Positions 34,650-60,455 of a DNA stretch of 64,000 nucleotides are shown here, piece by piece. The translations under genes were made by a program, and so were the position numbers. The notes under the pieces were generated by a model. The model saw only the letters and a program-made list of their open reading frames with translations, did no database searches and was not told the DNA's origin. The stretch comes from Henckelia pumila (taxonomy: Eukaryota; Streptophyta; Magnoliopsida; Lamiales; Gesneriaceae), in NCBI RefSeq assembly GCF_033568475.1, contig NC_133122.1, positions 138,639,402-138,703,401 on the forward strand, in the 5' to 3' direction. The number at the start of each line of letters is the position of its first letter. Within the stretch, counting starts at the first letter, position 1.

Positions 34650-35815
34650 CTGAAACTTGATATCTATTAGTAAATTGAGTGATGATGATTTTCATGTCAA
34701 GTTTGATAAGAATACTTGTAAAGTTTTTGATAATGCTAACATAAGTGTTTTAATAGGTACAAGATCAGCAGAGTACTACCAATTTGGAGAGGAACTTGCC
34801 TACAACAACATGAAAGTGGATGATCTTGATTTATGGCACCAAAAGATGTGTCATGTAAATGTAAAAACATTGAAAATTATGTGTAAGTATGAAGCTCTCC
34901 AAGGTATGTCTATTTTGAATTCTGAAGTTCCATATATTTGTGGTGCATGCCAAGTAGGTAAGAAAACTCACGTGTTGCATCCCGTGTTACAAGACTTTGG
35001 TACAACACGGTGCCTTGAACTTTTGCATTTGGATTTAATGGGTCCATACAAAGTATTCTTTTGTGTGTGTTGATGACTTCTAATGTTTTACATGCATAAG
35101 ATTCATCAGAGAGAAGTCGGATACTTTTGATGTTTTTAAAAATTTACTCGCAAATATTACTAACCTGCATAACTTGAAGGTTGGAAGGATCAGGACCGAT
35201 CACGGTAAGGATTTTGAGAACTCTTTATTTTCATATTTTTGTGATAATAAAGGCATATCACATGAGTTTTCTATCCCAAAGACTCCTCAACAAAATGGCA
35301 TGGCCAAAAGAAAGAATCAAACGTTTCAGGAAATGGCTAGGGTGATGTTGAGCTCAAAGAATATCTCAAAAAGAATTTGGGCAGATGTCGTGGATACATC
35401 TTGTCATGTATTGAATCGAGTATACTTAATGAATGGTTCTACTATGACTTTATATGAGACTCTCATGGGAAAGAGGCCAAACCTTAAATACTCTCATGTT
35501 TTTTGTTGTATTTGTAATATTTTGAATGAAAGAGATCACCTAGCCAAATTTGATTCCAAAATTGACAAATGTTTGGTTTTTGAATATGCTTCGAATAGTC
35601 GTCCATATAGAATGTTTAATTTGAGAACTATAAGAATTATGGAATCTATTAATGTAGTTTTTGATGATTTTGCAGATCTCAAAGGAAAAACTGTTGAGGA
35701 TGATGTATATGATCTGCTGGAAATTTTTAGTCCATTGAAAGATCCAGGTATTGCCTCTGATGTTGCAACATCAAGTACAACACTGGGACTAATAGTGACT
35801 GAACCTGAGGATAGT
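34650..35815 (+). pseudogene. int: SIRE integrase remnant
   Basis: The pre-integrase zinc region is present (LWHQKMCHVNVKTLKIM, ICGACQVGKKT). It is followed by HLDLMGPYK with the first catalytic Asp, a break near 35072-35170, and RTDHGKDF with the second Asp. In QQNGMAKRKNQT the usual catalytic Glu is Lys. The frame ends abruptly at 35815, where the Athila LTR begins. The coding frame resumes in phase on the far side at 37260. Confidence 0.88.
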
Positions 35816-37190
35816 TGATAACTGTGTTTCATATGCATATTTTCGATGTTTGTTTTTCCTGCATTCATATGTTATTGTTATTGTTTTATTTAGTTTTAGC
35901 ATGTTTAATTCATTTGTCTGCATAATACTCTTCCTGGTCCATTTTGTAGGGAAATGTGGAAAAATCCAAAATTCGAACAAAATATACTCGCTCGAGCGAG
36001 AGGCTATGCTCCCTCGAGCGAGGCCGTGAGAGCAAAAATTTTCCAGAAGTATTCTCGCTCGAGCGAGACCTGTGCTCGTTCGAGCGAGCAAAGGAGTGAA
36101 CATCGAGACAGACACTTGCTTGCTCGAGTGATAGTCATGCTCGCTCGAGCGAGCGAGGCAAGAAAATTAATTCCCGGATCAGAAAGTGTCTCGCTAAAGC
36201 GAGACTTGTGCTCGCTCGAGCGAGCGGAGCACACATACTTTTTAAAAATAGAAACTCTTGCCCGGGAAGGATACCATATTTTGAAGATCCTTGGGCATAT
36301 AAATATGAATTTATTCATCAGAATAAGGGTTACACAACTTTGTTGAAGGCAAGAGGCGGCCAACATCATCTCTGATTCTACTTTTCTTTTTCTTTTTGAT
36401 TTTTAGTTTATGTTTTGGATTAAAAACTCTTGTTCTTGAATTATGTTAAACTTTGAGTAGTTTTTTTTTTCGATCAAGGCCACGTGATTGGGCCAGACAA
36501 TTTATGTAAAAAACTTGGATGTTTATTTGAGAATTTTCAGATTTGATTTGATTTTATTGATTGTCGAATTTATATTTGTCTTGTGAATTACCTGGCCAGT
36601 TATTTGCTTGCATGTTAATCGATTCCAAGTCGACAGAGGAGGTTTTGATTTCGATCACTTTGATAATCAACATATTCTATAATCGACTAGAAATAGAATT
36701 CGGTTTCAATGTGCGGTTTAGGTGTTTACTGAATTTTTACAGTTATTCATTCATTCAAATTTGATTAGAATTACGAAAGATTAAACCGTCAATATTTGAA
36801 TAGGTTTGATTGTTCTAGAAATAGTCCTTTGAACAAATTAGGAAAATTCCCGTGAATTAAGATTAAATCTGAGTCTTGAATCAACTACTTGTTACATAAA
36901 TTTTTTGGTACCTACGTGAATCCTTGATCGAGATTTTCCCAAATTTAATTTTAATTCAAAATCTCTGCCGCGTTTTTACTGAGTTGAATTTCATTTGCAA
37001 TTAAATTTCTTAGTTTAAAATCTGAAATCGCTCTTATTGATTAGTCTAGATTAAGTAGGAATAATCATATTCTGGTGTTCATATTGATACAGTCTTTGTG
37101 GGTTCGACATCTGTACCTTTGTCCACTTTACTATAATTTGATCTGGTACGCTTGCCAGTAGATATTTAATCACACCGATTTAAGCAGTTA
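35816..37190 (+). repeat. Athila-type LTR inserted in the SIRE element, 1375 bp
   Basis: Starts TGATAACTG and ends at ...AGCAGTTA, just before a tRNA-Asp-type PBS. It is the same family as the minus-strand LTR 59010-60455: from about 36350 onward the two align closely (shared words CACGTGATTGGGCCAGACA, GGCCAGTTATTTGCTTGC). There is no partner LTR, no internal Athila sequence and no target duplication. The SIRE frame continues in phase if the insert is skipped. Confidence 0.88.
35987..36224. repeat. Paired 14-bp palindromes CTCGCTCGAGCGAG in the Athila LTR
   Basis: Eight exact or near copies start at 35987, 36009, 36054, 36075, 36117, 36140, 36190 and 36211. They come as four pairs with members 21-23 bp apart, and the pairs repeat every 63-73 bp. 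The reversed family member has copies at 60003, 60054 and 60104. Confidence 0.85.
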
Positions 37191-37196
37191 AGTTTT

Positions 37197-37260
37197 TGGC
37201 GCCGTTGCCGGGGATCGAACCCGGGTCACCCGCATGACAGGCGGGGATCGAACCCGGGTC
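37197..37260 (-). other. tRNA-Asp(GTC) 3'-portion copy joined to the Athila LTR
   Basis: 37197-37245 (49 bases) is the reverse complement of the 3' part of plant tRNA-Asp including CCA. It covers acceptor, T-arm, variable loop and the whole anticodon arm, with one mismatch at 37233, which corresponds to tRNA position 38. The first 18 bases are the normal PBS. The other family copy leaves tRNA identity right after the 18-base PBS (near 58988), whereas this one continues 31 bases into the tRNA body. A 19-base piece (GGGGATCGAACCCGGGTCA) at 37210-37228 is repeated at 37243-37261. This is not a tRNA gene: the 5' half is missing. Confidence 0.88.
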
Positions 37261-37261
37261 A

Positions 37262-38420
37262 ACCAAGCGATGATGATGTTGTTTTGATAAATGCTGGTAA
37301 AGACATTTCAAGCAAAATACAGAAGAACCATCCATCATCACATATTATTGAAGATGTTTTTGGAACAATGCAAACTTGAATGAAGGACAAAGTGAACTAA
37401 TTCGAGGTAATTGGGTCAGTATGCATGAGTTTATGTACTCAAATGAGGTAAGGTTGATTGAATATCATCTTAAAATTGGCTTGAAACGAGGTAAGGTTGA
37501 AAAAACCATTTTTTATTCAAAATTCCAAAGGTGAAATACCTGTTTGCCAAATTTTTGTGGATAAAATCATTTTTTGTGCTTCTTCTGATCAAAAGCATGT
37601 TGATGATTTTGTTGAATGCATGTCTTCCATCTTTGAATTGAGCATGGTAGTTGAGTTGAGTTATTTTCTTAGTTTTCAAATTAAGAAAATGCATCACGAT
37701 ATTTTCTGTCCCAAAGCAAGTATGTCAAAATTTTGATGAAAAAGTTCTGTAATGAGAACACTAAATGCATGAAAACACCAATGGAATCGATTGAAAAGCT
37801 GGGTAAGAATTGTGTTGTGGCCGGTGTTGCAAACACCATGTACCACATCATGATTGAAAATTTTTCTACTTAACTGCAATTCATGTTGATATCATGTTTA
37901 GTGTGTGTTTATGTTCTAGGTATCAATCTAATCCTAAGGTCAAGAATTTAAAAAAAAGTAAAACGTATCTTAAGATACACCTTCGACACCTTGGATTTGA
38001 GATTGTGGTACACTAGGGAGACAAATACCATTCTTGTTGGTTTGACTGTGTTTTTATGTGCTAGGGTTTTGAATGATAGAAAATGCACTATTGGAGGGTG
38101 TTTTTATCTTGGAAATAGAAGTTTTTGTTCAAAACTCTTTTGGATGAACCAAATGGTAGAGGATAATGGATTTGAAAGTGAACCCCCCATTTTTTATTGT
38201 GATAATTTGAGTGCGATTGACATTTCAGAAAACCCAGTTCAACACTTTCACACAAAACCCATTGACATTCGACGTCACTTTATTCGAGATTTGGTATAAA
38301 AAGGTGTGATCCGAATGGATTTTGTTGGAACTAGTAACTAACTGGCAGTTATATTCACAAAAAATTTAAATTTTGAGAGATTCTTCAATCATGAGAAGTC
38401 TCTCAGCATGTGTGCATGAT
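37262..38420 (+). pseudogene. SIRE RT and RNase H remnant
   Basis: Resumes SIRE coding with VLINAGKDISSKIQKNHPSSHIIED. Most of RT is deleted between about 37390 and 37490. The C-terminal part of RT follows (GEIPVCQIFVDKIIFCASS); the usual Y-V-D-D box reads F-V-D-K and would be inactive. RNase H is represented by ILVGLTVF..., FYCDNLSAIDISENPVQHFHTKPIDIRRHFIRDLV and a final NLNFERFFNHEKSLSMC. Several frameshifts occur. Confidence 0.85.
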
Positions 38421-58985: not shown

Positions 58986-59005
58986 TCCCCGACAACTGCG
59001 CCAAA
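58986..59005 (-). other. Athila primer binding site (tRNA-Asp, degraded)
   Basis: Minus strand TGGCGCAGTTGTCGGGGA differs at two positions from the tRNA-Asp complement. The sequence after these 18 bases (CTGTTTGAT...) is not tRNA-like. Confidence 0.85.
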
Positions 59006-59009
59006 AACT

Positions 59010-60455
59010 TGACCGCTCAAATCGGTGTGAATAAATTCTACTGGCAAGTGTACCAGGTCAAGCTATAGATAATGAATAGAATCAGATGTCGAACCCACAG
59101 AGACTGTATAATTATGAGTACCAAAAATATATTTATTCATACTTGATCTAGACTAATTAACAAGAGTGATGGAAATTCAGATTTTTAAACTATAAAACTT
59201 AAATTAAAAATAAGATTCAACTTATTAAGAACGCAGCAGAGATTTTTGGATTAAATTCAATGGATAAAAATCTCGATCAAGGACTCACATAGGTACCAGA
59301 CAAATTATGTAACAAGTATTCGATTCAAGACTCAGATTTAATCTTAATTCACGGGAATTCTCCTAATTTGTTCAAAGGACTATTTCTAGAACAATCAAAC
59401 CTATTCAAATATTGACGGATTAATCTTTCGTAATTCTAATCAAATTTTAATGCATGACGAACGGTGAAAATTCAGTTTACACCCAAACCGCACATTGAAA
59501 TCGAATTCTATTTCTAGTCGGTTTTACAATATGTTGATTATCAAAGTGATCAAAATCAAAACCTCATCTGTCGACTTGAAATCGATTAACATGCAAGCAA
59601 ATAACTGGCCAGATCATTCCAAAACAAATATAAATTCGATATTCAATAAAATAAAATCAAGTCTGAAAATTCTCAAATAAACATCCAAGTTTCTACATAA
59701 ATTGTCTGGCCCAATCACGTGGCCTTGATCGAAAGAGATAAACTACTCAAAGTTTAACATAATTCATAACCAAGAGTTTTTAATCCAAAACATCAACTAG
59801 AAATCAAAAATAAAAAGAAAAGAAGAAAGGTAGAATCAGAGATGATGTTGAGCCGCCTCTTCGCCATCAAAAGTGTTGTGTAACCCTCAATCTGATGAAT
59901 GAGTTCGTATTTATATGCCCAAGGGTATTCAAAAGATAGCATCCAATCCGAGCAAGAGTTTCTATTTTTAAAAAGACTGCATTAAAAAGTTTGCACGCTC
60001 CGCTCGCTCGAGCGAGCATGACTCTGTTCCGGAGGATTTCTGGGCTCGCTTCTCTCGCTCGAGCGAGCATCTTTCTGTCTCAGAGGATTTTTCGCACGTC
60101 TCGCTTGCTCGAGCGAGTGGATTTTTCTGCTCTGCGCAATGTTTTTTAAAAATTCATATCCAGAGTTCTAGCCATCGGATCGAGCTGAAATTTGGATAGC
60201 AGCTTTAAAATATCTTGAACTTTATGCTGAACGGTGAAAATTAGATTTGGATCTCTATAAAATTAAAATTGAATTTTTGACCAAGGCTTCTCCGTAATTC
60301 ATTCTTCAAAAATCTATTTTCCTACAAAATTAACCCAGAGAGTGAAATATACACACATGCACTACAACACATGAAAACATATAAAAAACAATATGAATGC
60401 ACGCAAAATAGACATAAAAATATCACAAAATAATGCATACAAAATGCACTTATCA
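59010..60455 (-). repeat. Athila LTR, 1446 bp
   Basis: On the minus strand starts TGATAAGTGC and ends GCGGTCA before the PBS. Same family as 35816-37190. Contains CTCGCTCGAGCGAG palindromes at 60003-60016 and 60054-60067 and a variant at 60104-60117. Confidence 0.9.

Follow-up and report, generated by a model that had tools for sequence, protein, structure and literature searches.

An insert in the genome of Henckelia pumila consists of a retrotransposon LTR that ends in a copy of a transfer RNA. It occupies 35814-37261 on the plus strand of the window (the whole stretch of 64,000 nucleotides of contig NC_133122.1 that was analysed) and comprises a single LTR, a primer binding site (PBS) and a complement of tRNA-Asp that continues far beyond the PBS. 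The insert is likely plus-strand strong-stop DNA that was made by a reverse transcriptase (RT) reading past A58 of the attached tRNA-Asp and that was joined into a break without integrase. The event in the window is one member of a recurrent class and not a solitary exception: a total of 22 LTR-tRNA junctions with tRNA copies of 30-75 nt were found, 14 with tRNA-Asp and 8 with initiator-Met tRNA (iMet).

Structure of the insert

The LTR (U3-R-U5) spans 35816..37190 on the plus strand, is 1375 bp long and begins TGATAACTG; its end at 37190 is a prediction, based on the ...CA with which the 3' LTRs of two related families terminate. The earlier note labelled it Athila, and it may belong to that lineage. 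The tRNA-Asp PBS agrees with this label, and a 300-aa internal piece of a related element, L016, gave no Pfam hit; in other tRNA-Asp families Pfam returned Retrotrans_gag in L017 and RT_RNaseH in L014, where RVT_1 fell below the cut-off. The best other match to the window LTR is 87% identical at full length and 88% identical as a partial match (40 scored among 5702 candidates). Repeated palindromes of the type CTCGCTCGAGCGAG lie at 35987-36225 in this LTR and at 59996-60117 in the LTR of the related copy at 58986-60455.

Downstream of the LTR, and likewise on the plus strand, lie a spacer, AGTTTT (37191..37196), which is identical in the ordinary family copies L003-L007 and reads TGTTTT in L002, and an 18-nt PBS (37197..37214) complementary to the 3' end of tRNA-Asp including CCA (n=1-18, where n counts tRNA bases from the CCA end). 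The tRNA-Asp complement continues through 37215..37245 (n=19-49) and spans A58 to position 27, that is, the T-arm, the variable loop and the entire anticodon arm; the tRNA positions (A58, 27 and 44) are those of the standard numbering. Of the 49 bases in PBS and read-through, 48 match the host tRNA-Asp genes with CCA added, the sole change being G>A at n=38, and the nine host tRNA-Asp genes found all share an identical 72-nt body. The 31-base core (n=2-32) had no match in 100 shuffles of the window. The earlier note had described the LTR, the spacer, the PBS and a tRNA-Asp complement to 37245, and the alignment to host tRNA-Asp genes that it proposed bears this description out.

What the earlier note overlooked is that 37246..37261 on the plus strand is not SIRE sequence but a second pass of tRNA-Asp through the T-arm (n=17-32, 96% over 23 nt). 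The first copy ends ...GGCGGG at position 27, and its terminal CGGG (37242..37245 on the plus strand, n=46-49) is identical to n=13-16 and forms the switch point into the tRNA/PBS. The sequence resumes from this second CGGG and goes on to n=32, and 37242-37261 is a repeat of CGGGGATCGAACCCGGGTCA on the T-arm side. Because the second pass runs through n=32, A58 is crossed twice (37215 and 37248, plus strand), and the base opposite it is T both times. The normal strong stop is m1A58, with a 3' end at tRNA position 59 (18 nt); here the copy reaches n=49 and then makes its second pass to n=32. The tRNA copy is followed by no internal sequence of the element. Its terminal TCA (37259..37261, plus strand) is a microhomology common to the tRNA copy and the target (ATCAACC).

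The target site and the left end of the insert

The insert interrupts an old, decayed element that is SIRE-like by the name used in the earlier note. The left flank (35000..35813, plus strand), by eye the integrase-RT interval, ends GAGGATA, and on the right (37262..38200, plus strand) the same element picks up again in frame (QPSDDDVVLIN...). Codons stay in register across the insert as TEPEDS/QPSDDD, where the paralogue L025 reads TEPEDNQPRNDD. The edges of the insert were set by SIRE-like paralogues: 40 right-flank matches were scored of 1195 candidates, one of them the window itself, and 29 others were fetched. The site is empty and the flanks are contiguous in all 29. The usual empty site is GAGGATA- or GAGAATA-ATCA-ACCAAG, with slight differences in L038, L039, L044 and L049, and the occupied site is GAGGATA-GT-TGATAAC ... 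GGGTCA-ACCAAG. Insertion cost 1 bp (one A), TCA is common to both sides on the right, and comparison with the empty-site paralogues reveals no target duplication. The earlier note had been correct in claiming that internal sequence and target duplication are absent and that the interrupted SIRE frame stays in phase. The empty-site paralogues for which it had asked hold no pre-existing tRNA piece (0/29) and move both of its edges: the left one from 35815/35816 to 35813/35814, GT not being target unless it is a mutated AT, and the right one from about 37260 to 37261/37262, with TCA shared with the target.

The GT at 35814..35815 (plus strand) is absent from the empty site GATA-ATCA and equals the last two bases of the family's polypurine tract (PPT, ...GGGGGAGT). 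The PPT was counted in the 100 bases upstream of eight LTR copies, excluding L077, which has none; before TGATAAC it ends ...GGGGGAGT or ...GGGAGAGT in six of the seven 3' LTRs and ...GGGGGAAT in the seventh. Among the seven LTRs that have a PBS downstream (L002-L008), none is preceded by GT. Since GT is the end of the family's PPT, it is what a PPT-primed plus strand carries before integrase trimming. The GT therefore suggests, but does not prove, an unprocessed plus-strand 5' end from before the action of integrase, as it is two bases long and may be an AT that has mutated. A change of A to G in the target was considered and is a weak explanation: the SIRE-like copy in the window is changed at 9 of 325 near-invariant columns, and A>G is seen at none of the 133 near-invariant A columns. 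The hallmarks of integrase, a 5-bp target duplication and an exact TG end, are both missing at the insert. A solo LTR produced by LTR-LTR recombination does not describe it either, as the tRNA tail is there and a duplication is not.

Ordinary copies of the family

The window contains an internal control in the LTR of a related copy (58986..60455, minus strand). Its tRNA identity stops after 18 bases, as the earlier note had observed, with 2 of the 18 PBS bases themselves changed, and it continues as the normal leader CTGTTTGATATCAG. All six ordinary family copies in which the leader was read go into a CTGTTTG-like leader right after base 18, and no other matching row (40 scored of 5702 candidates) extends beyond query base 1399, which is 37214, the 18th PBS base. 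Within the window's LTR family, the read-through lengths are 49 (window), 51 (L022), 52 (L019) and 57 (L016). Because the six ordinary copies have a different leader after base 18, L016, L019 and L022 look like further read-through products and not like a conserved leader. The earlier note had held against its own interpretation any full-length element in which the 49-base match is followed by normal internal sequence. Elements with read-through and internal sequence do exist, and L016, L019 and L022 are the three among them that belong to this LTR family, but none carries this 49-base piece.

Recurrence in the genome

The genome (884,658,702 bases in 133 contigs) was scanned for an LTR tail followed by the PBS and nine more tRNA-Asp bases, with 3 mismatches allowed. 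This pattern occurs at 14 places genome-wide, the window included. A 37-mer search returned the same 14 loci and the nine tRNA-Asp genes, and permitting any base at n=19 also gave the same 14. TGG (CCA) is present at all 14 loci and in none of the nine genes. For iMet a presumptive reference sequence was used and loci were chosen by TGG; 8 of 12 matches have TGG and were counted as junctions, and the four without it were taken as tRNA genes and left out. Six iMet rows with TTTAGATTTTGGG were dropped and taken as a repeated natural leader, and a near-match at C2:187871261 (L094) was dropped as not read-through. Reversed patterns, run as controls for the Asp pattern, the 37-mer and the iMet searches, had no match in the whole genome. 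A genome search for LTRs with a PBS extended into tRNA had been suggested in the earlier note, which treated the insert as a single feature; it adds 13 Asp and 8 iMet loci to the class.

Apart from the four lengths given above for the window's family (in which the window is L010), the Asp copies are 33 (L009), 47 (L020), 47-49 (L017), 63 (L011), 64 (L014), 65 (L015), 69 (L012), 71 (L013), 73 (L018) and 75 nt (L021) long; the iMet copies are 30, 30, 32, 34, 43, 66, about 71 and 75 nt. The endpoints seem crowded near stems (n=30-34, 47-52, 63-66 and 69-75). Judged by upstream sequence, the LTR tails are of at least six types, three with Asp and three with iMet. Exact LTR-tail-plus-PBS 21-mers number 3218 and are present in 7 of the 14 Asp loci, which gives a rough frequency of two per thousand where the 21-mers are places and not elements and the other seven Asp loci have a changed PBS.

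Short read-through (n=19-26) was sought with a 26-mer, which had 152 matches at one mismatch or fewer. Among the 100 of these that were listed, 6 were exact, all of them known loci, and 88 share the leader GGGGATTGAA. Copy lengths of 19-29 are therefore poorly sampled, and the list of endpoints is biased toward long copies. The leader itself matches tRNA-Asp at four of the five bases just past base 18; it could be a fixed short over-extension of the lentiviral kind, or chance.

Sequence downstream of the tRNA copies

After the tRNA, 12 of the 14 Asp loci go back to element sequence; within this set, a run into unrelated target DNA was seen only in the window. The resumed sequence differs from locus to locus, and the switches of the nascent strand (ACAA, GGCG, CAC, CGGG) were identified by eye. 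In L009 the tRNA is followed, through a CAC switch, by an LTR of the same type from its middle; the first LTR of this locus has a PPT before it and so occupies the 3' LTR position. L011 continues with an inverted U3 start, a PPT and 3' internal sequence. In L012 (C1:43436454-43439485, minus strand) the 69-nt tRNA leads to a short 3' internal piece, a PPT and a second LTR, and since its two LTRs are only about 70% alike the locus is read as a TRIM-like chimera of two elements. L013 enters an LTR end through ACAA and goes on to a full PBS and leader, L015 has some 40 bases of unplaced sequence, then roughly 200 bp of LTR tail, a PBS and leader, and L018 has internal coding sequence common to L013 and L014. 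Internal sequence is entered about 880 bp downstream of the PBS in L016, which first copies a 21-nt piece located about 250 bp further on, about 12-15 bp downstream in L019 and about 745 bp downstream in L022. L017 goes on with the leader from right behind the PBS, where a CGGG slip like that of the window fits if one G>A is allowed, and L020 switches through GGCG into 90 bp of inverted LTR tail before its leader. L014 is a patch inside coding sequence (oriented about 1469-1570) made of an LTR tail of ~36 nt and the 64-nt tRNA-Asp complement; its surroundings are by eye pol, in the interval from protease to RT, and the patch looks like the trace of a nascent strand that jumped to a U5-tRNA end and back. 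L088, like L020, shows an inverted LTR tail (a snap-back) after the read-through and then has an LTR tail and PBS again.

Partner LTRs were traced for three Asp loci, L013, L017 and L020. L017 has the 5-bp duplication CTCAG on both sides. L013 has GTTGC on both sides, and its LTRs are about 5 kb apart and 96-97% identical; this pairing rests on place and duplication, since some other copies score slightly higher. In L020 (L096) the element has a truncated 3' LTR and lies within a target repeat of about 37 bp whose copies differ at two places, which makes it a non-canonical insertion. The duplications at L013 and L017 indicate that an over-extended plus strand can complete replication and be integrated, as in two of the three traced elements.

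The template and the base opposite A58

None of the 22 junctions extends past tRNA nucleotide 1, and two of them, L021 (Asp) and L089 (iMet), end exactly there. The two bases after the end of L021 are AA, where the nine tRNA-Asp genes continue TT, TC or TG. Copying of genomic tRNA genes would be expected to overrun nucleotide 1 at times; these endpoints thus point to mature tRNA as the likeliest template.

Comparison of 1154 positions at the 22 loci gave 33 mismatches. Only three of the 207 positions with T are changed, each time at n=19, the base opposite A58, where L016 has C, L090 has G and L091 has A. At n=19 this is 3/22 against 0/185 at the other T positions (one-sided Fisher p=0.001, a post hoc test on three changes), and against all positions p=0.023, also post hoc. 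L090 and L091, which extend just about 11 bases past n=19, belong to a single LTR-tail type and are perhaps not independent. In the window the base opposite A58 is T in both passes, and hence no methyl signature is present. A base at which reverse transcriptases not only stop but also misincorporate is how m1A is described (PMC4787781), and an m1A58 methyltransferase exists in Arabidopsis (PMC7475180), tRNA-Asp not being named in the part of that source used here.

Proposed mechanism

The arrangement of the insert would follow from a single plus-strand synthesis. Starting at the PPT, an RT would pass through U3-R-U5 and the PBS and copy the tRNA-Asp to position 27, where the nascent 3' end ...CGGG would slip back to the identical CGGG on the T-arm side and the T-arm would be copied a second time, to position 44. 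The over-extended DNA would gain no internal sequence. Whether single-stranded or duplex, it would then be joined by end joining into a break in the old SIRE-like element, with the loss of 1 target base and no duplication, the left end keeping two extra PPT bases that integrase processing normally removes and the right end being joined through TCA. The sequence fits free strong-stop DNA as well as a linear cDNA that stalled, of which the insert would be the right end. The interpretation as read-through strong-stop DNA, put forward in the earlier note, is thereby upheld and extended by the GT, by the second pass over the T-arm and by the recurrence.

At most of the other Asp loci, the over-long end, unfit for annealing at the PBS, would have been salvaged by switching to other element sequence, several of the joins having a few bases in common. 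As a tentative joint reading, which we hold a little short of even confidence, the A58 stop is leaky in this lineage for at least two primer tRNAs, over-extended strands are rescued at short homologies in the PBS, leader, LTR, internal coding or opposite-sense sequence and integrate, and some of the changes opposite A58 are imprints of a methyl group, A58 having been methylated in those tRNAs. If this is true, genomes record past tRNA modification.

Alternative explanations

A complete element with read-through, of the kind seen in L016, L019 or L022, could have integrated normally at the site and later have lost its internal region and 3' LTR, and loci with read-through and internal sequence are indeed present in the same family; the 3-nt TCA microhomology would fit a deletion too. 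We nevertheless consider this unlikely. As the right flank begins at the very next target bases, the deletion would need an endpoint inside the 5-bp duplication itself, it would require the A>G change that is absent from the 133 near-invariant A columns to give GT, and the window's tRNA piece is found nowhere else in the assembly. Break repair in plants commonly adds copied filler, and with nine identical tRNA-Asp genes available as templates a broken LTR-PBS end might have invaded one of them through 15-18 bases and copied it with no RT involved. Such repair is a very improbable source given that no junction runs past tRNA nucleotide 1 and two end exactly there, that canonical 5-bp duplications flank two of the three traced elements, in which the junction most likely predates integration, and that 12 of the 14 Asp loci continue in other element sequence, including the inverted U3-PPT-internal sequence of L011.

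The tRNA caller ARAGORN reports a tRNA-Asp on the minus strand at 37201-37273, as a tRNA-derived SINE or tRNA pseudogene beside a solo LTR might produce. By its coordinates the call is a chimera of two T-arm copies and SIRE-like bases, and it was rejected. The match begins directly at the PBS with the CCA complement, which the nine genes do not encode, no part of the window scores up to the gathering threshold of any Rfam family, and there is neither a duplication nor a tRNA piece in any of the 29 fetched paralogues, which together make a SINE or pseudogene hardly credible. A natural extended PBS or leader of the family would resemble the primer over-extension sequences described in lentiviruses (PMC13191261). 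It would have to be reconciled with the different leader after base 18 in 6/6 ordinary copies, with all other matching rows stopping by base 18 (40 scored of 5702), and with four read-through family members that differ in length (49, 51, 52 and 57), and its probability is negligible.

Significance and comparison with known systems

From HIV work, the strong stop is held to secure the second strand transfer (PMC13191261). This one genome appears to contain about twenty junctions, the longest reaching the full tRNA and two or more lying in elements flanked by target duplications, so that a step studied chiefly in HIV experiments can be read in nature. Counted directly, they record how frequently the block is breached, at which points the polymerase stops on real tRNA and how over-long ends are rescued, and they show ways in which LTR elements can acquire leader deletions, inverted LTR pieces and tRNA insertions. 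They are also an annotation trap, as the ARAGORN call of a junction as a tRNA gene demonstrates.

Read-through itself is already known biochemically. A genomic record of integrated LTR-tRNA read-through has apparently not been reported in the open-licence literature, in the full text of which no such report was found among the matches listed. Mules, Uzun and Gabriel reportedly described Ty1 intermediates with untidy ends in 1998. In yeast, Ty1 cDNA is captured at double-strand breaks without duplications; the piece captured here would differ as a strong-stop DNA that kept PPT bases and has a tRNA copy at its end. The Helenus TRIM elements are likewise LTR retrotransposons with tRNA-like sequence, but according to the part of that source used here this is a tRNA-like promoter inside the LTR without PBS complementarity, whereas the sequence described here lies beyond the LTR as an extension of the PBS and is complementary to the primer itself (PMC10886601).

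The closest parallels come from HIV. Junctions of HIV 2-LTR circles with PPT or tRNA primer sequence have been described (PMC5618025); their extra bases are primer-derived, as here, but lie in unintegrated circles (PMC5618025). One study sought the same junction in integrated HIV-1 made with A58U tRNA and, in the portion used here, reports no additional tRNA after A58 and concludes that modification of nucleotide 58 is dispensable (PMC1785368). This counts against our preferred explanation, and is to be set beside the 22 junctions found here, two of them in elements with 5-bp duplications. The insert resembles the HIV-1 strong-stop product, in which U3-R-U5-PBS is made from the polypurine tract (PMC13191261). 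Among the HIV-1 products P1-P5, A58 is the normal stop, and unmodified tRNA is copied to its 5' end in vitro (PMC13191261). Over-extension is also seen in TRMT6-mutant cells, and only products that end at A58, 55 and 54 are said to be usable, long read-through being unusable (PMC13191261). The HIV-1 products were cDNA made in the test tube or in cells, whereas those of Henckelia pumila are genomic copies from two primer tRNAs, up to full length and in some cases integrated.
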